Below are positions 8,778 through 12,306 of a stretch of DNA of 64,000 nucleotides, in pieces. The position numbers were made by a program, and so were the translations under genes. Origin of the DNA: Pedobacter sp. Leaf170 (lineage in GTDB: Bacteria > Bacteroidota > Bacteroidia > Sphingobacteriales > Sphingobacteriaceae); NCBI RefSeq assembly GCF_920984665.1, contig NZ_CAKLBP010000002.1, forward strand, positions 1 to 64,000, in the 5' to 3' direction. Numbering within the stretch: position 1 is the first letter of the stretch; every line of letters starts with the position of its first letter. The notes beneath the pieces are model-generated. The model did not search any database, was not told where the DNA came from, and worked only from the letters and a program-made list of their open reading frames with translations.

Positions 8778-9160
8778 TGATATAATTCCATTAGCTCTTT
8801 CACTACGGGCACATCTGCCGCTGCCCAATCATACGCCATGAGGTTGGCTATCTTTTCCCATTTTACTTGCATGTGCTCTATGGCGTTAAGTTCACCACTC
8901 TCATACTCACAAATAAAAGGATAAAGACGCAACGAGAAATCTGAGTAGTGGTGTATAACATCCGTTAAACCTTTTCCAATGCTGATTTCTAGACTTAATT
9001 CTTCTTTAATTTCCCTCGCCAGGCAAGCTGCTTTACTTTCTCCCGCCTCTACCTTTCCGCCAGGAAATTCCCATTTCAAAGGTAATATCATATTTGCGCT
9101 ACGTTGCGCAATCAATACATGGTTATCCTTAAAAATGATGGCGCAAGTAACTTCGAGCAT
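8774..9160 (-). CDS. Nudix hydrolase, MutT-like (d)NTP pyrophosphohydrolase
   Basis: A 128-residue MutT-like enzyme. The Nudix box is complete: GKVEAGE, seven residues, then REIKEEL, giving the GX5EX7REUXEE pattern with its metal-binding glutamates. Length and the N-terminal VTCAIIFKDNHVLIAQR match the 8-oxo-dGTP/CTP pyrophosphohydrolase subgroup. It is the first gene of an operon: its TGA stop overlaps the start ATG of the PLD-helicase-DUF3427 gene, so translation is coupled. The coupling suggests a shared task, such as nucleotide hydrolysis tied to a helicase-nuclease response, rather than general pool cleaning. The true substrate cannot be told from the sequence. Confidence 0.92.
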   Translation of the reverse strand: MLEVTCAIIFKDNHVLIAQRSANMILPLKWEFPGGKVEAGESKAACLAREIKEELSLEISIGKGLTDVIHHYSDFSLRLYPFICEYESGELNAIEHMQVKWEKIANLMAYDWAAADVPVVKELMELYQ

Positions 9161-9178
9161 TAATTAGTTTTTGGTTTT

Positions 9179-9209
9179 CTAAAGTAAGATAAATTTGTGA
9201 AAAGGTAAA
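9179..9209 (-). promoter_or_regulatory. Probable promoter of the Nudix-helicase operon
   Basis: On the minus strand TTTA (9209-9206), 19 bases, then TACTTTAG (9186-9179), ending 18 bases before the Nudix ATG. Spacing matches the strong promoters at 48-310, with one mismatch in each box. Confidence 0.4.
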
Positions 9210-9695
9210 CCCAGTATTGGATTGAAGTAAGTGAGCGCCATTCCCGAAGGCGTGCTTTATAAAACATTGTCATTAATACTTGCTTTATCTAAAATATAGA
9301 AACACTAAAATTGGCTAAGGAAATTTTAATGATGATTCGGCACGCCCGGCAGGATAAAAATTTTAAATTTATTTGGCTACTTGTCTTGATTCAACCGGGA
9401 ATAAAGGAGTGAAGTATAAGCCACTCCCAACTCTCCAAATGGGATAGCGAGGCGAATTCTTTCATATCTAAAATAGTGTTGCCGAACTTTAGGGAACTGG
9501 GGGTGAAATTTAGCACCCTGTATACATTCCCAACTGGGGAACCCGTACAGATTTAGCTTTGGTGAAGGTGCGGCAGGCGGATTGGAGGCTTTAAGCATAA
9601 AAAATCTGAGATAGGAGATTCCAGAACAAGAAAACTAGCGAATACTTGGAACTTTGTTAGCCCTAGGCCAGCCGGTTAAGCTAAATCTAAAACAT
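9210..9695. other. Intergenic region with an orphan open frame
   Basis: About 490 bases with no supported gene. A 73-codon frame on the minus strand (9377-9598) encodes a proline- and aromatic-rich peptide with no signal, membrane segment or known motif. It has no recognisable promoter and could be a decayed interspersed repeat; it is not called as a gene. Confidence 0.5.
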
Positions 9696-9729
9696 AAAGA
9701 CCATCAACCTGATTGGATTGATGGTCTTT
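9696..9729 (-). terminator. Terminator of tRNA-Arg
   Basis: A perfect 12-bp stem, AAAGACCATCAA (9696-9707) with TTGATGGTCTTT (9718-9729), and a 10-base loop, six bases past the tRNA 3' end. On the minus strand the stem ends in TTT followed by ATGTTTT. Confidence 0.75.
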
Positions 9730-9734
9730 TAATG

Positions 9735-9806
9735 TAGCCCCGAGCAGAATCGAACTGCTATCTAAAGTTTAGGAAACTTCTATTCTATCCGTTGAACTAC
9801 GGGGCC
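9735..9806 (-). tRNA. tRNA-Arg (anticodon CCT)
   Basis: The 72-nt cloverleaf is complete on the minus strand. The acceptor stem is GGCCCCG with CGGGGCT (one G-U) and discriminator A; the D stem is GTTC/GAAT; the anticodon stem is GAAGT/ACTTT with loop TTCCTAA, giving anticodon CCT (reads AGG); the T arm is AGCAG-TTCGATT-CTGCT. CCA is not encoded. Its 5' half and 13 or so upstream bases are repeated at 10054-10154, and the GIY-YIG gene begins 8 bases upstream of the tRNA 5' end. Confidence 0.95.
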
Positions 9807-9814
9807 AAGCCGAT

Positions 9815-10054
9815 TTACAAAGATTTTAAAAATTCTTTACCTTTCCCAGACTTGTAATACTTTTCTTTATCTCTTGCAGCAATTCTGCCTTTAATCTGTT
9901 CTGTATAAATTAAAACCCAAGGCTTGTATCCCTTTGAAGACTTTGTTTTACCAACATTATGTTCATGTAACCGCTTTTCTACATCAGATGAAAAGCCAAC
10001 ATATATTCGTCCGTCTATTTCACTCTTTATTGCATAAACATAAAAAATATCCAT
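9815..10054 (-). CDS. Small GIY-YIG endonuclease (UPF0213/URI type)
   Basis: A 79-residue single-domain nuclease of the kind seen as stand-alone UvrC-N-like proteins. The motif runs FYVYAIKS...RIYVGFSSDVEKRLHEHN, giving VYA-YVG in place of GIY-YIG, then the catalytic arginine of KRLHEHN and the metal-binding glutamate near RDKEKYYKSGKG. The gene lies precisely between an intact tRNA-Arg and a truncated copy of its 5' half. The A of the start codon is the last base of the tRNA fragment, and the stop lies in the repeated tRNA flank. That arrangement suggests a homing-type or duplicating unit aimed at tRNA genes. No promoter of its own is evident. Confidence 0.85.
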   Translation of the reverse strand: MDIFYVYAIKSEIDGRIYVGFSSDVEKRLHEHNVGKTKSSKGYKPWVLIYTEQIKGRIAARDKEKYYKSGKGKEFLKSL

Positions 10055-10139
10055 ATCTAAAGTTTAGGAAACTTCCCTGCCTGCCGCAGGTAGGTATTCC
10101 CTACCAAAGGTAGGCAAGTATCCGTTGAACTACGGGGCC
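10054..10139 (-). pseudogene. Broken 5' half of tRNA-Arg(CCT)
   Basis: On the minus strand it begins like the intact tRNA (GGCCCCGTAGTTCAACGGATA). It then carries a 43-base hairpin insert in place of the GAATA of the D stem, resumes with the anticodon arm including CCT, and stops after AGATA at the variable loop. The T arm and 3' acceptor strand are missing, so it cannot fold as a tRNA. Confidence 0.9.
10076..10118. repeat. 43-base double-hairpin insert in the tRNA fragment
   Basis: The insert holds two adjacent small palindromes: CCTGCCTG/CAGGTAGG (one G-U) with a 3-base loop, and CCTACC-AAA-GGTAGG, a perfect 6-bp stem. It replaces five bases (9781-9785 in the intact copy). Its shape resembles REP/MITE-like elements. 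No second copy was noticed in the window. Confidence 0.75.
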
Positions 10140-10200
10140 AAACCGATTTACAAATTTGGATTTTAGATATAAATATTTCTACCGCAATCTTCAGCCTTTT

Positions 10201-12306
10201 CTATCGTATTACACTACCTTCTGTAAACTGTTCTGCAGGTGCGACAAAAGTAAGTTTTCCTGCTGAATTTTCAGCCATTAAAATCATGCCTTGCGATAAA
10301 ATGCCTTTAATTTCTCTGGGTGCCAGATTTACAATCATACTTACCTGTTTACCAACAATATCTTCAGGTTTATAATATTCGGCTATGCCTGATACTACGG
10401 TGCGCTCATCGATACCAGTATTTACCGTAAGTTTCAAAAGCTTTTTAGTTTTTTCTACCTTTTCGGCAGCAATAATGGTTGCTACACGTATATCCATTTT
10501 AGAAAAATCATCAAACTGGATGTTTTCTTTAGCTAGCAATGCTTGCGCTGGTACCGCATTAGCTGTTTTACTCTGGTTAAGTTTTTCAATCTGGAAGTCG
10601 ATTGCTGCATCTTCAATTTTCTCAAATAAAAGTACCGCTTCATTGATGGTATGACCACGTTTAATCAATGTTGAAGAACCGGCTTCAGACCACTCCTGCC
10701 TACCATTGTTTAGCATCTTCATTAATTTATCAGACGTGAAGGGCATAAATGGTTCAATCAAAAGCTGCAGGTTGGCACAAATTTGCAAAGAAATATTAAG
10801 AATGGTACGAACCCTGTCCTCATCCGTTTTAATTAATTTCCATGGCTCGGTTTCGGCTAAATATTTATTTCCTAAACGGGCAACATTCATCACTTCTGAT
10901 AGCGCTTCTCTAAAACGATAGTTTTCGATAGACGCAGATATTTTACCCGGGAAAGTTGCCAGTTCGTCAATAACAGCCTGATCTTGCGGAGTAACCTGCA
11001 TTAAGGTGGGCACAATACCATTAAAATATTTATGTGTAAGTACGGTAACACGATTTACAAAATTCCCTAAAATTGCAACCAGTTCGTTATTGTTTCTGGC
11101 CTGAAAATCTTTCCAGGTAAAATCGTTGTCTTTAGTTTCTGGTGCCGTAGCGGTTAATACATATCGCAAAACATCCTGCTTGCCTTCAAACTCTCTCAAA
11201 TATTCATTTAACCAAACTGCCCAGTTTTTTGAAGTCGAGATTTTTTGTCCTTCGAGATTTAGAAATTCGTTAGCAGGTACATTATCGGCTAAGGTATAAT
11301 CGCCATGCGCCATTAACATTGCAGGGAAAATGATACAGTGGAATACGATATTATCCTTACCGATGAAGTGAACTAACTTTGTTTCATCGCTCTTCCAGTA
11401 TTCTTCCCATCCGCATTTATCACTTTCATAATTATTGATGTAATATTCTTCAGCTTTTGGATTCCATACATCAAGCTTTGCGTAATTACAAAGTTCTTTA
11501 GTGGCAGAAATATATCCGATAGGTGCATCAAACCAAACATACAATACTTTGCCTTCTGCACCACGAACAGGTACACGGATGCCCCAATCTAAATCGCGGG
11601 TCATGGCACGGGGTTGTAAACCGGCATTTAACCAGCTCTGGCATTGGCCGTAAACATTTGGCCGCCATTCTTTATGGCTTTCTATATAAGCCCTTAAGCG
11701 TTCTTCATATTTATCAAGTGGCAAAAACCAGTTTTTAGTTTCCTTTAAAATGGGTTTATTGCCCGATAAGGTAGATTTTGGATTGATTAAATCTGTTGCA
11801 TTAAGCGTTGAGCCACAGTTTTCGCATTGGTCGCCATAAGCATTTTCATTGCCACAATTCGGGCAGGTTCCGGTAATATATCTATCGGCTAAAAATTGTT
11901 TGGCCGTTTCATCATAGTATTGTTCGGTTACTTCTTCGGTAAAAACACCTTTATTGTAAAGCGTTTCAAAAAAATCGGCAGCCGTTTGGTGGTGTGTTGA
12001 AGATGATGTACGGTGGTAAATATCAAAAGAAACTCCAAATTCTTTAAAAGAATCGCCAATAATTTTATGGTATTTATCCACAACTTCTTGCGGCGTAATG
12101 CCTTCTCTTTTTGCCTTTAACGTTATCGGAACACCATTTTCATCAGAGCCACATACAAATTTTACATCTCTTTTGTTGGAGCGAAGGTATCTCGCATATA
12201 TATCTGCCGGTATGTAAACACCCGCCAAATGACCAATATGAACCGGCCCGTTGGTGTAAGGGAGTGCTGCCGTAACCGTATATCTTTTTATTTTACTATT
12301 ATCCAA
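10201..12306 (-). CDS. metG: Methionyl-tRNA synthetase
   Basis: A 701-residue cytoplasmic enzyme that charges tRNA-Met. The class I signature HIGH is at 23-26 ([11 protein letters not shown]) and the KMSKS loop appears as KISTS at 355-359. The connective domain has a four-cysteine zinc knuckle (C148, C151, C161, C164), which places it in the MetG1 subgroup. Residues from about 595 form the C-terminal EMAPII/Trbp111-like tRNA-binding OB fold ([11 protein letters not shown]...LAPREIKG), used for dimerisation and tRNA binding. The length is normal for Bacteroidota. Divergent from the LD-carboxypeptidase gene with only 39 bp between the starts. Confidence 0.98.

Follow-up and report, generated by a model that had tools for sequence, protein, structure and literature searches.

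The split tRNA-Arg locus of Pedobacter sp. Leaf170

We analysed a 64,000-nt stretch of the Pedobacter sp. Leaf170 genome (contig NZ_CAKLBP010000002.1, positions 1 to 64,000; here called the window). On its minus strand a host flank is followed by tRNA-Arg(CCT) positions 1-21, a palindrome, positions 22-26, a second palindrome, positions 27-48, a GIY-YIG ORF, a spacer, a whole tRNA-Arg(CCT) gene and a hairpin (Table 1). The intact tRNA-Arg(CCT) gene is the sole full match genome-wide, and the runner-up matches at 75% over 65 nt. An earlier sequence-only reading had reported that the 5' half of this tRNA and its upstream flank occur twice, 295 nt apart. Two repeat pairs bear this out (36 nt at 97% identity, 9786-9821 and 10119-10154; 22 nt at 100% identity, 9759-9780 and 10054-10075, 295 nt apart). 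It was also right that the ORF starts on the tRNA fragment (the A of its ATG is tRNA position 48, the last base of the inner piece), that the TAA lies within the repeated flank and that the DNA between the copies is almost only the 79-codon GIY-YIG gene, as no other ORF fills the space. The half-tRNA copy is present as described but is not contiguous: two 19-nt GC palindromes had been overlooked, and the partial copy is an exact match to tRNA positions 1-48 once both are removed. In the window the palindrome pattern (up to 3 mismatches) gave two matches, which are one site read on both strands, against 0.01 in shuffles. DNA folding of the split tRNA copy gave a z score of -3.4 (intact tRNA, -2.8).

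The two upstream flank copies agree in 14 of the 15 bases before tRNA position 1. At a related locus (L007) the upstream flank clearly represents the 3' end of a further copy of the ORF, so the duplicated flank in the window is probably the remnant of a tandem unit. Two other identities were rejected for the locus: a group I intron in the tRNA gene or another known RNA family, since a complete tRNA is present and Rfam searching at 8800-10400 (up to E 0.1) gives tRNA only, and a tRNA-targeting integrative element, since no integrase is found between the repeats and the 79-aa GIY-YIG ORF alone fills the space.

Table 1. Features of the split tRNA-Arg(CCT) locus, with positions in the window.
Feature	Position	Strand	Evidence
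Terminator-like hairpin downstream of intact tRNA	9696..9729	(-)	Inverted repeat
Intact tRNA-Arg(CCT), restored copy	9734..9806	(-)	ARAGORN; Rfam RF00005, 62.9 bits at 9735-9806
Flank between ORF end and intact tRNA (same as 10140..10154), holds the TAA of the ORF	9807..9821	(-)	
GIY-YIG nuclease ORF, 79 aa	9815..10054	(-)	ORF list, Pfam, alignment, Ka/Ks
Inner tRNA piece, positions 27-48	10054..10075	(-)	Repeat search; insert-tolerant tRNA scan
Palindrome 2, 19 nt, at GAATA^GAAGT	10076..10094	(-)	Pattern scan, insert-tolerant tRNA scan, hairpin on folding
tRNA positions 22-26	10095..10099	(-)	Sequence
Palindrome 1, 19 nt, imperfect, at GGATA^GAATA	10100..10118	(-)	Sequence; hairpin on folding
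Severed 5' piece, tRNA positions 1-21	10119..10139	(-)	Repeat search, insert-tolerant tRNA scan
Flank repeat upstream of severed piece, probably left over from the 3' end of a further ORF	10140..10154	(-)	

The nuclease protein

The 79-aa protein has a single Pfam match, GIY-YIG (54 bits, cut-off 22.6), spanning residues 4-72, i.e., the catalytic domain alone, and its fold was assigned from Pfam. In an alignment of 12 relatives Y7, Y18, G20, R28, H32 and E64 are invariant and residues of catalytic type are conserved. The Ka/Ks ratio of the window ORF against five relatives is 0.04-0.24, and 13 of 15 ORF pairs have a finite Ks and a ratio of 0.04-0.26 (Ks was saturated in the other 2). These ratios indicate that the nuclease ORF is under purifying selection. 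Among solved structures the relatives are 1ywl (E 6.3e-5) and 1zg2 (E 7.5e-4), both UPF0213 GIY-YIG proteins, and 1mk0 (E 0.19), the I-TevI catalytic domain; to our knowledge, neither the UPF0213 proteins nor the I-TevI domain are tRNA-linked elements. NCBIfam offered no specific family, only a sub-threshold match to a group I intron endonuclease. PHROG homing-endonuclease families gave only weak matches to the window protein, at E 7e-4 to 3e-3, and no match at E 0.01 to three of its relatives. No relative was found in one scan of viral contigs, and thus no phage vector was found.

The Leaf170 genome has three other GIY-YIG matches, none with a tRNA within about 1.5 kb. A second small GIY-YIG gene (L001, C1:709542-709763) has no tRNA within 1.5 kb, and an intergenic repeat, CTTCAGTCGAGATGACG, flanks it on either side. 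Not every small GIY-YIG gene therefore belongs to the tRNA-linked family.

Relatives of the nuclease lie beside tRNA genes

Relatives were collected from three sources. Of 145 Pedobacter genomes, 57 carry a match to the window protein (30 matches were used as loci and 20 more were hand-picked as weaker paralogues). A scan of prokaryote contigs gave 28 loci. A 12-sequence profile of tRNA-linked relatives (E ≤1e-12) was run against 296 Bacteroidota genomes of at least 90% completeness, where it found a relative in 163 genomes and 91 of 140 genera. The resulting 164 loci (window included) were picked for the similarity of their protein to that of the window or to the 12-relative profile; 55 come from Pedobacter and the prokaryote contigs and 109 from the best matches listed in the Bacteroidota profile search, with one place taken per array or contig. 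Two loci stand twice in the set (L044/L157 and L175/L263), and L035-L037 were dropped as copies of L006-L008.

A tRNA or tmRNA lies within 400 nt at 150/164 loci, and it is on the same strand as the ORF in all 150. The associated genes comprise 25 tRNA labels plus tmRNA. Among the 20 hand-picked weaker paralogues, 19 adjoin tRNA-Asn, -Val or -Asp, again on the same strand. Relatives beside tRNAs were found in Bacteroidota, Chlorobiota and candidate phyla, and the window locus is one member of a large GIY-YIG/tRNA family. In candidate phyla (Uhrbacteria among them) a related nuclease and the same palindrome occur at tRNA-Asn (L057, L059), and at a tRNA-Asn-like sequence, as judged by eye, in Woykebacteria (L062). 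Tandem arrays of nuclease and split tRNA were seen at L017 (genome G123, spacing about 399 nt, at least 8 ORFs) and L196 (G379, spacing about 450 nt, at least 5 ORFs); arrays also occur at L041 and in G309.

Split tRNA copies in two mirror forms

The sequence-only reading had proposed a search for GIY-YIG genes flanked by tRNA halves elsewhere. By BLAST, tRNA pieces outside intact genes occur at 126/164 loci (opposite-strand control, 2/164). An insert-tolerant scan found a second, insert-split copy of the same tRNA at 110/147 loci with an intact tRNA nearby (reversed-tRNA control, 0/147), and several loci missed by both scans show the split layout on reading. The net insert length is 10-64 nt (n = 110), with modes at 19-20 and 22. 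The inserts include single palindromes (CCTGCCTGCCGGCAGGCAGG), double hairpins (TGCCGAAGGCATCCCTTCGGGA) and TCC...GGA palindromes that replace a few bases. Taken singly, only 50 of the 110 score as better hairpins than their composition shuffles do (at most 1 of 100). They interrupt the D arm (63), the T arm (33), the anticodon arm (10) or the variable region (4), and GA directly follows 62 of the 110 (6.9% of dinucleotides in the same tRNAs).

In 62/110 loci a severed 5' piece precedes a downstream intact tRNA, as in the window; 35/110 show the mirror form, a severed 3' piece with the intact tRNA upstream, and 13 match neither rule. Restoration of the 5' half is therefore the commoner form and not unusual as first thought. 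The variable-loop/T-stem border, taken earlier for the insertion point, is the ORF junction only; the recurrent interruption is the palindrome, which in the window lies in the D arm. The side of the tRNA (up- or downstream) follows the protein weakly (65/95 against 54.4 in shuffles; 59 of 2000). A near-whole tRNA-Arg copy at one locus, L050, is interrupted in three separate places, each time by a palindrome.

Identity to the intact copy is 99% for the outer, severed piece against 74% and 71% for the inner piece on the far side of the palindrome, a comparison in which match extension favours the outer piece. Severed outer pieces are identical to the restored ones in 60/63 and 32/34 cases. Such identity is as compatible with local duplication or gene conversion as with foreign import, a point against homing. 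The flank upstream of tRNA position 1 is shared (at least 11 of 15 bases) in 15/62 comparable loci, window included, as scored by agreeing bases (a count of exact runs scored the window low and was replaced); in 47/62 the homology does not clearly reach the upstream flank. Upstream-flank duplication was thus ruled out as a general rule. For inserts beyond tRNA position 45 the severed 3' piece begins directly after GTTC in 22/37 cases, and where the tRNA holds GTTCSAWTY it begins exactly after GTTC in 16/22.

Empty, occupied and former sites in Pedobacter

Matches to tRNA-Arg(CCT) were found in 144 of the 145 Pedobacter genomes, and 78 loci were read and counted by hand (80 minus L090 and L111, which repeat L008 and L012). 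A 5' fragment is present in 10/12 loci with a nuclease or remnant and in 1/66 without, where offsets of 1 at L084 and L122 are the tRNA itself and were left uncounted, and L094 went into the class without nuclease despite the remnant of an ORF 3' end in its flank. The one exception, L123, whose close sister L010 is occupied, has fragments split by palindromes but no ORF. The flanks before the severed piece in L011, L012, L119 and L008 align with L144, L149, L132 and L106 (77-86%, 238-252 nt), where the aligned flanks abut, or nearly abut, an intact tRNA. Empty sites in related genomes, as the sequence-only reading had called for, were thus found, with the half tRNA nearly absent where there is no nuclease; and the same promoter flank directly before an intact tRNA supports insertion into the tRNA with a working tRNA restored. 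Half tRNAs in relatives lacking the nuclease, and nuclease homologues free of tRNA halves, were not seen as a rule, since the fragment goes with the nuclease and the homologues are strongly tied to tRNA pieces.

The motif TAnnTTTG, which we take to be a Bacteroidota-type promoter motif, stands upstream of the severed piece in 8/10 occupied sites and before the intact tRNA in 0/10; it is found in 34/65 empty sites. Two occupied sites lack the motif, the window among them. In the 5' form the promoter of the host tRNA comes to lie ahead of the severed piece, from where it would probably transcribe the tRNA together with the ORF. L130 and L094 look like former sites in which only the ORF 3' end is left (L094 by eye), and remnants occur at L119, L130 and L094. 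In the occupied allele the severed tRNA copy is interrupted, yet the adjacent intact tRNA can equal the empty-site tRNA (100% for G057, G082, G108, G130 and G137). A nuclease specific for that sequence should therefore cut its own carrier.

Target fidelity and host descent

Target fidelity was examined in the Bacteroidota sample, in which 95 of 108 loci have a tRNA label. The nearest protein in a different host family (median identity 59%) lies at a tRNA for the same amino acid in 69/95 cases; the shuffled mean was 13.5 and 0/2000 shuffles reached 69. This cross-family match argues for spread between hosts with the target kept, i.e., for horizontal transfer with target fidelity. Over all hosts, the closest relative comes from the same host family in 47/95 cases (shuffled, 9.9), so host descent also shapes the pattern. 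The palindrome class follows the nuclease across host families as well (31/49 against 18.2; 1 of 2000), where classes were set by our own patterns and 26/110 inserts that fit none were excluded. When the tRNA amino acid was forced to differ, palindrome-class agreement was 41/110 against 27.8 (15 of 2000). The tRNA identity is the stronger correlate of nuclease clade.

Dispersed palindromes and sites outside tRNA genes

With up to 1 mismatch on a strand, the palindrome pattern occurs at 29 places in the Leaf170 genome, palindrome 2 among them (26 forward and 23 reverse matches; reversed-pattern control, 0). Several dispersed 19-nt palindromes in this genome (L063-L083) seem by eye to be nested in other intergenic repeats, e.g. 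near GTCATTCTGAGGAACGAAGAATC. The nuclease is present in 37/41 Bacteroidota genomes with the 20-nt palindrome against 126/255, a comparison from which genome kinship is only partly removed; without host family f17 the figures are 36/40 and 107/191. In Pedobacter the palindrome-nuclease link gave 4/5 against 35/140 for carriers of close relatives. At the genome level this link is circular in part, since palindromes inside the elements' own tRNA copies were counted (for example those of G412, G260 and G151, five of seven in G379, and in Pedobacter those of G036 and G057). In each of G066 and G076 the palindrome pattern gives 9 forward matches, although the Pedobacter search found no relative there; G028 has 32 matches and distant relatives only. 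Dispersed copies read by eye showed no obvious shared GA rule.

Some relatives sit elsewhere than at tRNA genes. At L248 (minus strand, 2100-1100) the ORF has a truncated start of an rmlB-like gene (named by eye from VTGGAGFIG) on one side and a complete start on the other. The complete and the severed copy have different 5' ends, which is what one would expect had the restoring piece arrived with the element. L248 is the tRNA-type layout repeated at a protein gene. In L184, L199, L223 and L257 the ORF is enclosed by a long palindrome of the CCCCGTGAGATA...TATCTCACGGGG type with no tRNA nearby; some of these sit, as seen by eye, within recombinase-like coding sequence. L228 has a similar long palindrome with both arms just upstream of the ORF.

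Comparison with known systems

Among the closest known systems is SegB, a GIY-YIG homing endonuclease of T-even phages. As described in sections of Chihara et al. 2026 (PMC13096335), SegB lies near tRNAs of many isotypes, its mapped cut sites fall within tRNA genes and it prefers RAWTSGAAC (23 of 83 sites, not strictly required). The same sections report that in phage T6 SegB causes a tRNA-Tyr/segB unit to be amplified in tandem and that there is microhomology between the tRNA 5' end and the segB 3' end. The family described here is likewise found near many tRNA isotypes and forms tandem units of tRNA plus nuclease. The T-loop sequence GTTCSAWTY, interrupted in our family, is the reverse complement of the SegB motif (PMC13096335), and since severed 3' pieces start after GTTC, many palindromes sit where SegB, an enzyme studied independently, prefers to cut. 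SegB is a phage gene, whereas the family here is found in bacterial genomes and the window protein, at 79 aa, is the catalytic domain only; the sections of the SegB paper considered here (PMC13096335) describe no palindromes and no severed/restored tRNA pair. In intronless homing, as presented in part of PMC3984707, free-standing nuclease genes spread into conserved genes that lack them. Our elements differ from those genes in duplicating a large part of the target, which thereby stays functional, and in leaving a target copy that contains palindromes. Mobile palindromic GC clusters or double-hairpin elements of mitochondria are short GC-rich hairpins inserted genome-wide, according to part of PMC4478555. 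The palindromes here are also short GC-rich hairpins at many genome places, but they are bacterial and tied to a GIY-YIG gene and tRNA loops.

The titles and abstract starts returned by our searches of open-licence PubMed Central papers do not describe the arrangement (subscription journals and preprints lie outside this scope), and a search for the palindrome strings gave 0 papers in the same collection. Within that open-licence scope we did not find the widespread tRNA-linked GIY-YIG family in print.

REP elements with RAYT transposases are short dispersed palindromes that go with a small enzyme of mobilising type, and the RAYT enzyme is an HUH/Y1 tyrosine transposase. The palindromes and the small enzyme are alike here, but the enzyme is GIY-YIG, and a true REP/RAYT system was rejected on this ground.

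Interpretation

On balance we think it probable that the locus represents a minimal, free-standing homing element, one of a large GIY-YIG family that targets tRNA genes, with cleavage and mobility inferred from the comparisons. The sequence-only reading had suggested a minimal homing-type element, and the empty sites, the link between fragment and nuclease and the homologues at tRNA pieces lend it support. Among the marks of a free-standing homing endonuclease gene, the following were found at the sequence level: a GIY-YIG domain with conserved residues, an empty allele and apparent spread with target fidelity. From the insertion, target fidelity and layout seen by comparison we infer a cut, a repair step and a role of the palindrome. 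The small nuclease would cleave its own kind of tRNA gene within the D, anticodon or T loop, and repair that uses a carrier copy would bring in the ORF and the missing tRNA part. One working tRNA would be re-formed on one side while the severed piece stays on the other, so that elements would exist in 5'- and 3'-restoring forms, and the palindrome would mark the presumed cut site. Self-cutting of the carrier, the chief difficulty for this reading, may be avoided by tightly limited expression, by a real substrate that is structured or by a role of the palindrome in recognition.

The last two options lead to a rival in which the palindrome itself is the mobile unit, recognised and moved by the GIY-YIG protein in the manner of REP/RAYT, and the tRNA pieces are favoured landing sites and homology arms. 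Palindromes are indeed dispersed in the Leaf170 genome while the reversed pattern is absent, genomes with the 20-nt palindrome mostly carry the nuclease, palindrome class tracks the nuclease across host families, GA follows the insert far above background, and at four loci that lack a tRNA a long palindrome encloses the ORF. On the other side, the link across genomes is circular in part, nuclease clade is tied more closely to the tRNA than to palindrome class, G066 and G076 are rich in palindromes without a relative (G028 with distant relatives only), and the dispersed copies read show no obvious GA rule. We consider this rival unlikely. A broader proposal along the same line, possible but doubtful to us, is that in Bacteroidota and other phyla the family is a GIY-YIG counterpart of REP/RAYT: the nuclease would open tRNA genes and some protein genes before GA, a hairpin placed at the cut would later disperse, duplication of the tRNA would keep the host alive, and the system would be a main source of the dispersed GC palindromes of these genomes.

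Local tandem duplication would account for the layout by recombination that amplifies a tRNA-ORF segment, with no mover between genomes. The tandem arrays (L041, G123, G379 and G309), the identity of outer and restored pieces and the SegB-driven segmental amplification of the tRNA-Tyr/segB unit in phage T6 (sections of PMC13096335) agree with it. Single-unit occupied sites beside empty sites, an upstream flank not clearly duplicated in 47/62 loci and relatives that share a tRNA target although their hosts belong to different families and phyla speak against it, and we regard it as improbable. Least credible, with only a slight chance of being correct, is a host-serving RNA device in which the pseudo-tRNA, split by hairpins, would serve as a regulator or decoy and the nuclease would act on or regulate tRNA. 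Same-strand coupling, purifying selection and the structure in the split copy would suit such a device; patchy presence, remnants and loss, the decay of the inner piece to 71-74% identity and the use of many unrelated tRNAs would not.

If the homing reading is true, tRNA genes, some of them single-copy as in the window, would be under recurrent attack across the phylum by units of about 300 bp, which is very small for homing elements. The nuclease would then be a candidate agent for the short palindromes scattered through Bacteroidota genomes. The family may also supply a panel of compact nucleases, with a single kind of tRNA gene as the partner of each, for testing how a selfish nuclease spreads without the death of its carrier.
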